Assembly: GCA_002917775.1 (NCBI GenBank)
Contig: KZ627150.1
Coordinates: 346,284 to 410,283, forward strand
Direction of reading: 5' to 3'
Source: Glaciozyma antarctica PI12
Lineage: Eukaryota; Basidiomycota; Microbotryomycetes; Kriegeriales; Camptobasidiaceae
Length of the DNA stretch: 64,000 nt
Both the position numbers and the translations under genes were made by a program. The number at the start of each line of letters is the position of its first letter. Positions within the stretch are counted from its first letter, which is position 1. The notes beneath the pieces were generated by a model. The model had not been told where the DNA came from, searched no databases, and saw only the letters and a list, made by a program, of their open reading frames with translations. This document shows positions 50,685 to 54,403 of this stretch, piece by piece.

Positions 50685-52952
50685 CTAGCAGCCGTAGTAG
50701 CGACTACCATAGTCGCCCAATCCCGGCGTGATCGCAAACACCTGCTTGCTTCTCATCAGCTCTGCTCGCCCCCTGCTCTCTTCGCACTCACCTTCTTCGG
50801 CCCCTGCTCTCCCTCCCTGCGTCTCCCCGTCGACTTGTCCTCCGAACGCTTGGGATAAGGATCCGTCGGCCACACCCACCGCTCCTCGAGTCCATCATCC
50901 ACCGCACTGCTGACGATTCGTACGTCCGGGAACGCTCTTCGCAGCGCCCAGATGCCGCCGACGCGCGAGACGAGCATGCAGCAGAAGATGATGTGGGATT
51001 CGGGGACGCCGTGGTCGAGAAGGACGCGAACAGCCATGAGCGCTGCGGCACCCTGAGAGAGAAACGTCAGCGACTGCGAAGGCGGGGGAGCGAGCGAACT
51101 CACGGTGCCGATCTGCGAATCGAGGAGGAGGACGAAAGATTCCGCGGCGCTCTCCTTTGATAGTGTAATAATCTCGGGCAGCTCGACGTGGTAGAGGAGC
51201 GGCTCGCCGTTCTTGCAGCTCTGGATCAGGACTGACCCGACTGCGACGTCGCGGAGCACTCTTCGCAAGCCCTTCTCCAACGACGCGCCCGACCGAAGGA
51301 TCGAGACGCCGCAGAGATGGCCAGCGTCGATGGCGAGCTCTTTCCCTATGCAGGGGAGGTGCGTGGCTGTCATGATGGGTTTTGGGCGCGTGGGGAGGAG
51401 AGTGAGGGCGTGTTCGATGACGAGAGTCGAAAGGCGGTTGGCGTGGAAGATGAAGTCGAAGATGGACGTCGTTCGGTCTCGTAGAATAGTTTGAATGCCC
51501 TGCGAAACAGCAAGTCAGTACGAGCTGCGACGGGACGACTGGAAAGCACGCACGCGAATCTGAGAAGACTGCTCCAGCGCGAAGACCGTATCAGGCAGCC
51601 CGATCTCTGCACAATGCGAAGCTCCTCCGTTGCCAAGGCTCAGTGTCGCCGGATCCACGTTCGCTTTGAAGAGCTCCGTCCTGAGTTCATGCTTCCGCTC
51701 GTCGAGTTGCTGCCGAATGTGATTGACGATGAGGTCGACGGCGATCTCGTTGTTCATACCGGGAACGATTACGTCGGCGTAGCGAGATGTGGGGAGGATA
51801 AAGTTGTCGAAGCTCGGTTTGACGAAGCGAAGGTACTGATCAAGACTGCGAGAGGTGAGCGCGAGTCGACAACGAAAGCAGGAGAACGGCTTACATGCCA
51901 GCGGGATCGCGGGCTCGTTCGACCACATCTCGGCGAAGACGACGTGCGAGCATGATGTCTGAATCGCACTACGGGATGCGTGAGGAGGTGAAGGGCGAAT
52001 GAGAACCGAGGAACGAACCTGGACGAAAATCTTGAGATCGAGAAGGTCGCGAACTTGAGCGTCGTGAAGGACAAATAGCCCCTCGACTAAAAATCAAAGT
52101 GTTAGCAGCGATACCGCAGCGACCAGCGAGATGCTCACTGATCACGACCCCGGCGCCGTACAGATACGACGTCTCGAGAGTGCGCTGATGCAAGACGAAG
52201 GAGTAGTTGGGGATCTGAACGGATCGAGAGGCTTTGAGGTCGATTAGGCATTGTCGCAGAAGCTCGTAGTCGAAAGATCCTGGACTATCGAAGTCTGCGA
52301 AGGAAGCTGATCAGCTCGAGGTCGAGGGTGGTAAAGGCAAAGACTGACCATGCTCGTTTTTGAACGCCCGCTTTGATTGCTCGGGAGTTAGACTGTTGTA
52401 AAAGGAGTCCTGGCTGATCACAAGGACCCAAGGGACCTGAGCGAACGCCGGCTGTGAGCGAAGGTAGAAGCTGCGAGGAGAGACCACGTACGGCCAGCCT
52501 CTTGAGGATCTCTGCGGAGCCTGATTAGCGAAGCTCTGAGATTATTTAAGCAGTTCCGAACCTTGAGCTACACGAGTCTGAGAGAAGAGGGGAGCAGTGA
52601 GTCTCGAGGCGCAAGAGAGAGAAGCGAGTCGCGCACCTTGCCGCTGCGATGCGAGGTCAGCCCGGGATCTCGCGAGCAGTCTCTCGAAGAGCGGCTTACC
52701 TAGCACTCCCACCACTGATTCCAATCAGGTACGCGCTCAGAGGAGTCCCATCTGAAGCACCACCAGTTGAGAGTCAGCTCCTGTCCTCTCCTCTTCCTCA
52801 GCTCCTCCCCTCCTCACCAGTTCGGTACCACGGCGAGCGTCTGCGCCAATGGGGGGGGGGGGGGGAGGATCAGCTCCTGTTCCTGGCCCGTACGAGCGCG
52901 TTGGCCGCCCTCTCGCCCCGCGCAAGACCTTCCGCCTCGAAGCTCCGTCCAT
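50685..52952 (-). CDS. urk1: uridine kinase fused to UPRT-like domain
   Basis: Uridine-cytidine kinase phosphorylates uridine in pyrimidine salvage; eukaryotic forms carry a C-terminal uracil phosphoribosyltransferase-like domain. The kinase part is YLIGISGGSASGKTRVAQEI (P-loop), VLVISQDSFYNSLTPEQSKR, DFDSPGSFDYELLRQCL, VVIVEGLFVLHDAQVRDLLD, MLARRLRRDVVERARDPAG and KPSFDNFILPTSRYADVIVP. The UPRT-like part has ILRDRTTSIFDFIFHANRL, LCGVSILRSGASLEKGLRR, LLLDSQIGTGAAALMAVRVL and ITPGLGDYGSRYYGC. The 5' exons are very small: 52894-52952 (59 nt), 52818-52840 (23), 52700-52751 (52), 52637-52643 (7), 52562-52577 (16), 52492-52511 (20). The phases agree at every junction, and all introns are GT-AG. 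The Ser-Gly-Lys of the P-loop is made by the 7-nt exon. Intact. Confidence 0.9.
52851..52865 (-). repeat. 15-base G/C homopolymer in a urk1 intron
   Basis: Fifteen G on the + strand, so fifteen C on the sense strand of urk1, located in intron 1 between a GCTGAT branch motif and the CAG acceptor. It would serve as an all-C pyrimidine tract. Run length may be inexact in the assembly. Confidence 0.75.
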
Positions 52953-54403
52953 CCCGCCTCCGGCTCCACTCGACTGCGTGCGAACGCGCTGAGCTTACCC
53001 TGCTTCCGTGAGGATCGTGTTCTTCGGCACCATACGCGCTGAGGTCGTGGTGGTGAGTAGGAGCAAAGATCGACCGGTCACGCGGCGTCGCGAAGGAAGG
53101 CCAAGAAGACGTTCGGCCGAAGAGCTCTCTTCTCCTACTCCACAACCTGCTCAACAGCCGTTCTCCCTGAGCTGCTCAAGAGCTTAGCCTGGTCATCGCG
53201 CCGCCAGAGCTTGCGAGGCCTCAATCGCGTCTGCTCCGAGACTCTCCTTCGCCGCCGGTTCATTCTGCGCGTGGTGACTCGGTCTGATCGTGCGAGGGAG
53301 CTTCCCCCGAGTCGTGAAGCTGCTCGTGTTCTTCTCTTGGGCACAGAGCAATTCAGGGCAGAGGTTACCGCGCTGGAGGAACGACGGGGCGTGCTCTCGC
53401 AGGGTGGAGATCTGCTTCCTCTGCGCCACTGCGATTCAATTTGCTGTGCGTAGCTCTGGAATCCAGGTGCTTAAGCCTCTTGGGCCAGCGATCTGTTCGC
53501 AAGCGCGTTCATCTCAACCCCTCGGACTTCCTCACCTCGTGCGTCCTGCACGACCTCCGCCACTGCGCCCACGACCTCTGCTTTCCCATGTTTCTTCCAC
53601 TCTACGTCCAGTGTAGCAACTCTAGTTCCGTGCTTCTCTGCACTTAGTTTCTGGCCAGCCACGCTCGGCGCCGAAACGAACGACGCTCTTCTTCATCCCC
53701 CTCTCGCGTGTTAGCCCGTGCTCGCTTCTGCTTGTTTCATGTACTGAATGTGGTACTAGCTGCGCCCTTCCCTCAACAACGTTTAGCTACTCTCTTCACT
53801 CGAATCAACCGCTCGCTTCTCAACCCCTTTCTTGCAAGATCGTCCTTCCTCGGCACGCAGAAGAACGCTGCGACGCAGAGGCAAAGCTGGGAATTACACC
53901 TCAAGGACTCGAATGAGGAATACCAGGCTCGATGAAGAGGGATTATCAAGCTGAGGAGAAGAGGTCGACGAGGCAGCGTGTGCGAAGGGCAAGATCATTC
54001 GCTGGAGCTCCGGCAGGCACGAGCTGAGCTGTAGCTTCGAGCCAGCTGCTTTTGAATTGGTTTACAGAGGCTGCACGGGCTATAAAAGCTCGTACTCTCG
54101 AATAGATCTGGTGCTGAGAGCTTGAGATTGCGAACCTGCGAAGCCAAGGAGCGCCCTCGGCCTCGACTGTTTCTCTCCATTTCCTCTGTTCGTTGCAGCA
54201 GCGGACTGTTGGCTGAATTATATCACGCTACTTCCTTTCCCCTTGCAGAGAGATCTGACGAGGAACGCGGGAGAGGAAGTCGGTCACGAGAGAACGCAAA
54301 AGAGAGTGACGTCCTCACTTTCTTGTCCTCGAGATCCTGTGCGACGAGAGGCTTTGATCCCAGACGACGAGTCACCTCGAGAAGCACCAGCAACGCCACC
54401 GCC
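52953..54403. other. long non-coding interval with TATA box
   Basis: 1451 bases, the longest gap in the window. Short frames are open on both strands but none has a domain or matching intron pattern. The right end holds a good TATA element and a roughly 290-base leader for the GRAM-VASt gene. The left end holds the urk1 promoter. The middle (53440-53700) is pyrimidine-rich on the + strand. It may hold a long regulatory region or an unrecognised non-coding RNA. Confidence 0.5.
54079..54087 (+). promoter_or_regulatory. TATA box upstream of the GRAM-VASt gene
   Basis: The sequence ggctataaaagctcg contains a consensus TATAAAA. The segment about 30 bases downstream (54110) would be the transcription start, leaving a leader of about 290 bases before the ATG at 54404. 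Confidence 0.55.

Follow-up and report, generated by a model that had tools for sequence, protein, structure and literature searches.

The window analysed here, a 64,000-nucleotide stretch of Glaciozyma antarctica PI12 contig KZ627150.1, carries on its minus strand a gene that codes for a predicted uridine kinase of the Urk1/UCKL1 type, with kinase and UPRTase domains. The joined frame comprises 1,569 nt and ends in a stop codon at 50685; it includes the first six exons traced in a preliminary description of the locus and eight exons beyond them, separated by 13 introns of 49-66 nt each, all of the GT-AG type. Residues 36-219 of the model match PF00485 (PRK/uridine kinase; E 1.9e-51) and residues 280-475, in the C-terminal part, match PF14681 (UPRTase; E 1.4e-42), which bears out the earlier naming of the gene as a uridine kinase. 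Among solved structures, the predicted protein is closest to uridine-cytidine kinase 2 (E 3.1e-54), followed by uridine-cytidine kinase 1 (E 1.5e-53), and the joined frame contains an intact Walker A motif, GGSASGKT. The protein is identical at 211 of 463 aligned positions to human UCKL1; the sequences of this reference and of yeast Urk1 are taken here to be correct. The gene product resembles the other Urk1/UCKL1-type uridine kinases in its combination of a kinase domain with a C-terminal UPRTase domain, and nothing unusual was seen in the protein, whereas the exon structure is finely divided. The gene and its 5' coding exons, numbered as in the preliminary description, are the following:

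50685..52952, minus strand: uridine kinase gene (Urk1/UCKL1 type), 14-exon coding span, 522 aa (exon chain and profile matches)
52999..53033, minus strand: alternative first coding exon, 35 nt; not decisive (donor, codon and shuffle tests)
52894..52952, minus strand: exon 1 of the preliminary description, 59 nt; doubtful, may fall inside intron 1 (chain script; donor, codon and shuffle tests)
52818..52840, minus strand: exon 2, 23 nt (exon-chain script, spliced alignment to UCKL1)
52700..52751, minus strand: exon 3, 52 nt, coding for LIGISGGSA plus bases 1 and 2 of the Ser codon that follows (chain script, UCK2 and UCKL1 alignments)
52637..52643, minus strand: exon 4, 7 nt, completing Ser and coding for Gly-Lys of Walker A (chain, alignments, shuffles)
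52562..52577, minus strand: exon 5, 16 nt, beginning with the Walker A Thr (chain, UCK2 and UCKL1 alignments)
52492..52511, minus strand: exon 6, 20 nt (chain, UCK2 and UCKL1 alignments)
52349..52436, minus strand: exon 7, 88 nt, VPWVLVISQDSFY... (14-exon model, UCK2 and UCKL1 alignments)

The coding start had been described as a chain of six exons of 59, 23, 52, 7, 16 and 20 nt. The exons of 23, 52, 7, 16 and 20 nt are confirmed by the present analysis, while the 59-nt first exon is not. In the six-exon chain, introns 1-5 are 53, 66, 56, 59 and 50 nt long, and intron 6, which precedes exon 7, has 55 nt. As had been stated, GT follows each of the six exons, CAG precedes exons 2-6, and the phases sum correctly in a script check; a branch-like CTNAY motif, earlier noted for most of the introns, lies 14-35 nt from the 3' splice site in all 13 introns of the 14-exon model. 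Internal coding exons of less than 30 nt (23, 7, 16 and 20 nt) are flanked here by GT-AG introns of 50-66 nt, and the DNA sequence bears out the micro-exons from exon 2 on.

Support for these junctions comes from spliced alignment. A program written for this analysis, with the letters of the human UCK2 protein as its sole input, returned exons of 32 (partial), 7, 16, 20, 88, 156, 68, 74 and 145 (partial) nt; these junctions are those of the model built by hand. The Urk1 and UCKL1 sequences both gave the 7-, 16- and 20-nt exons, and UCKL1 also gave those of 23 and 52 nt; towards the 3' end, the two alignments divide some exons in other ways than the hand model, and those divisions are not trusted. 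As a null model, the 263 nt between exons 3 and 7 were shuffled with dinucleotides kept. With the more distant UCK2 reference, which carries a 7-residue insertion in this region, 3 of 2,000 shuffles reached the observed score, as might be expected if the chain were an artefact, pieced together from numerous GT and AG sites in looking for a P-loop. However, with the N-terminus of the closer UCKL1 as reference none of 10,000 shuffles did so (observed 144.1, best shuffle 136.7), GKT or GKS arising by chance in 60 of the 10,000 shuffled chains. The remainder of the gene codes for a conserved enzyme that is intact, the locus showed no second sequence from which the P-loop could come, and a chance origin of the chain has next to no probability. 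A stwintron, an intron with a second intron inserted into one of its splice signals, was also considered and was rejected, as the intervening 7, 16 and 20 nt code for residues that match UCK2.

Two further observations concern the acceptors of this region. On the minus strand, a run of 15 C at 52851-52865 lies between a CTGAT motif and the acceptor of exon 2, and it may represent the pyrimidine tract of the latter. A CAG that precedes the exon 7 acceptor by 15 nt (52437-52451, minus strand) is a possible alternative 3' splice site, the use of which would add five in-frame residues, PAFAQ.

For the first coding exon, two candidates were compared using splice-site weights; the weights were derived from 26 other gene models, some of them doubtful, which together supply 130 introns of the genome. 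The donor of the 59-nt exon, CTCGTACGG, falls at the 5th percentile of these introns, and its codons score -0.33 bits each, against 0.15 to 0.71 for the 26 gene models, which were also the training set. The 35-nt exon (MVPKNTILTEAG, joined to RSPWY) shares the phase of exon 2 across an intron of 158 nt, its donor ranks at the 23rd percentile, and it scores +0.57 bits per codon; the codon test is noisy, since exons 2-3 themselves score -0.26 bits per codon. The product obtained through the 35-nt exon reads TILTEAGRSPWYRTDG, to be compared with TIYTKGRPPWYNEHG of UCKL1. The choice of the aligner depends on the gap cost: the 59-nt exon is selected at a cost of 11 and the 35-nt exon at a cost of 8, and 6.4% and 2.2%, respectively, of 3,000 shuffles score equally high for homology of exon 1. 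Judged from these scores, the putative 35-nt first exon is somewhat better supported than the 59-nt one, and further exons upstream of the 5' end are possible.

The frequency of such exons was surveyed in 26 other conserved gene models, namely 22 small-GTPase loci (22 of L002-L030) and four others (L086-L089). The small-GTPase set was obtained by taking 30 loci, eight of which were dropped because they duplicated genes already in the set. The 53 hits included at least two more genes for which there was no locus; chaperonin and proteasome loci (L032-L085) were left out for want of references. The reference proteins of the survey are presumed to be accurate. Two of the four non-GTPase regions, intended as actin and beta-tubulin, contain more divergent members of these families. 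Before the removal of doubtful exons, the 26 models comprised 109 internal exons with a median of 90 nt, among which 10 are of 15 nt or less, 21 of 27 nt or less and 34 of 51 nt or less; the median of their 135 introns is 62 nt. For each of the 23 internal exons of up to 30 nt, the surroundings were shuffled 200 times, and an exon was accepted if no more than two shuffles were as good. Eighteen exons passed, six of them of 15 nt or less, including narrow passes for a 7-nt exon of L018 (1 of 200 shuffles) and a 19-nt exon of L005 (2 of 200). The five that failed have 5 nt (L005), 27 nt (L018), 5 and 11 nt (L030) and 5 nt (L087).

The characterization of such a row as unusual for a compact yeast gene was not sustained: supported exons of up to 30 nt are spread over 10 of the 26 other models, although, with 22 of the models from one family and with presumed reference sequences, this shows how common they are among these genes and not a whole-genome rate. 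The shortest accepted exon, of 5 nt (TAACC), lies just past the P-loop lysine of a RAB11-like gene, and none of 200 shuffles scored as high. A CDC42-like gene, L013, has a row of four exons of 27, 12, 17 and 13 nt, longer than that of the uridine kinase, and adjoining exons of 9 and 25 nt are present in a RAN-like gene (L024). The first two cases, together with a paralogue of the second, are located as follows:

G000:C4:690788-694063, minus strand: RAB11-like gene L003, 5-nt internal exon
G000:C11:894629-897808 and G000:C3:731107-734304, minus strand: CDC42-like paralogues L013 and L012, respectively, gene models

L012 and L013 have introns in common at coding nucleotides 48 and 104, and L013 only has two extra introns between them; judging from these gene models, the pair offers a picture of how micro-exons could originate by intron gain or loss.

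The short exons are concentrated at the 5' end of the coding sequence. After the five exons that failed the shuffle test had been dropped, exons of up to 30 nt accounted for 16 of the 51 internal exons with a start within coding bases 1-150, versus 2 of the 53 with a later start (Fisher P 1.9e-4), and exon length increases with position in the coding sequence (Spearman 0.39); the P-values for position are optimistic because the surveyed genes are related. This concentration suggests that introns are biased towards the 5' end. An intron lies within eight codons of the P-loop lysine in 13 of 23 GTPase models; two of the 23 have one precisely at the boundary of GK and S/T, the position also found in the uridine kinase. 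P-loop codons may resemble a proto-splice site.

Exons of similar size have been described in other fungi. Comparison with cDNA demonstrated 22 exons in bglA of Rhodotorula minuta, 10 of them shorter than 30 bp and the shortest of 6 bp, with introns of 55-69 bp, and a shortest exon of 5 bp in bglA of Sirobasidium magnum, so that cDNA-based exons of 5-6 bp are on record for two basidiomycetous yeasts; three micro-exons occur in bglA of Hamamotoa singularis and none in that of Sterigmatomyces elviae, and the authors termed micro-exons a putatively common feature of basidiomycetous yeast genes (PMC9142197). The R. minuta gene resembles the uridine kinase gene in having micro-exons between short introns, but the bglA genes belong to the GH1 glycosidase family (PMC9142197) and are without a P-loop. 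P450 genes of Phanerochaete chrysosporium, likewise a basidiomycete, have small introns (45-55 bp) and micro-exons with a shortest of 6 bp, but they form a multigene family of a filamentous fungus, for which alternative splicing was suggested by the authors (PMC1184071). As regards intron density, 5.2 introns per gene were reported for R. taiwanensis (PMC5766836) and about 6 for R. mucilaginosa, where the shortest predicted CDS segment has 3 bp (PMC6476726). In the literature search, no listed paper mentioned the exon structure of this particular uridine kinase gene, and the terms micro-exon, intron definition and exon definition are absent from PMC11913375.

The preliminary description had further proposed that the 7-nt exon, as the source of Ser-Gly-Lys of the P-loop, could be skipped in a regulated manner and act as an on/off switch. 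The exon is indeed the source of these residues, and its omission destroys the P-loop and leads to a stop at codon 48 in the frame of that description. A micro-exon switch has been published for Xlr2 of Trichoderma virens, also located in a fungal coding region; however, inclusion in Xlr2 varies with glucose and both forms are functional (PMC11121469), whereas single skips destroy the frame of the uridine kinase. For micro-exons of length 3n, skipping usually leaves a usable frame (PMC11121469); none of the lengths 7, 16 and 20 is a multiple of 3. Skipped singly, exons 4, 5 and 6 leave no usable frame, the stops falling at codons 48, 60 and 82, respectively, in the same frame, and six of the seven ways to omit one or more of them give stops at codons 48-82. 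The sole in-frame omission, that of exons 5 and 6 together, costs 12 residues including the P-loop Thr. Cassette exons are moreover rare in fungi, with a fraction of 0.02 in Cryptococcus neoformans (PMC2397502). The analysis of frame and splice signals in the sequence gave no positive sign of regulated skipping, and a switch of this kind is extremely improbable.

Among splice variants in fungi, intron retention predominates: in the fungi and protists surveyed, retained introns were 37 times more frequent than cassette exons (PMC2397502). Retention of any one of introns 1-6 leads to a stop at codons 34-107 in the frame of the preliminary description, and introns 1, 2 and 5 have weak donors, at the 5th, 8th and 15th percentile, so that inefficient splicing is possible there. 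Poor splicing of the 5' introns could cause early stops and mRNA decay, the splicing efficiency setting the level of the salvage enzyme. Yet most introns would be expected to give early stops if retained, the sequence analysis revealed no sign of regulation, and similar 5' micro-exons are present in unrelated housekeeping genes; dosage control by splicing is unlikely.

The reading that we favour, with considerable confidence, is that the 7-, 16- and 20-nt exons are constitutive micro-exons, separated by ordinary spliceosomal introns that are recognised by intron definition, within a 5'-biased architecture produced by intron gain and loss. The 5' coding end of the sole PRK-family gene found in the genome appears to be cut by many ordinary introns of about 50-66 nt, each of which is most likely recognised as one unit. 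Intron definition was inferred for ascomycetes, basidiomycetes and zygomycetes (PMC2397502), and the presence of CTNAY in all 13 short introns fits recognition across the intron, in which case exon size would be of little importance. Since introns only 7 nt apart could hardly hold two spliceosomes at once, removal is probably sequential: on the steric grounds of the 7- and 16-nt spacing, introns 3, 4 and 5 would be taken out one by one, each ligation extending the upstream exon, and the micro-exons would be included constitutively. The row appears to be part of the 5'-biased micro-exon architecture found in other genes of the genome, probably arising from intron gain and loss and not from selection for a switch. 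As tiny exons occur in many other genes and are known in related yeasts, this looks like ordinary gene architecture of an already known kind, and the uridine kinase looks like a further real case of it and not a demonstrated switch. These results do not show a new regulatory system; what they add is a case, checked by homology, of micro-exons in a compact yeast genome.

A wider proposition can be attached to the same genes, namely that across the lineage, genes for nucleotide-binding proteins, with the uridine kinase and the CDC42-, RAB11- and RAN-like genes as joint examples, are regularly fragmented at the 5' end into micro-exons, so that the failure of one junction would abolish the protein at or before its active site and serve as a splicing-fidelity checkpoint on dosage. 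We consider this very unlikely.

The fine division of the gene also affects its detection. A six-frame search of the whole genome with PF00485 scored the uridine kinase locus only, with the proviso that a paralogue as finely split could escape an exon-by-exon search, and a 24-base pattern for an uninterrupted P-loop, itself uninformative, was without a match. Even at the uridine kinase locus the six-frame family search matched profile positions 61-117 only and missed the P-loop, which is a warning for annotation: as the survey suggests that a fair share of the conserved genes here have micro-exons, N-terminal motifs may be missing from proteins predicted for related yeasts.
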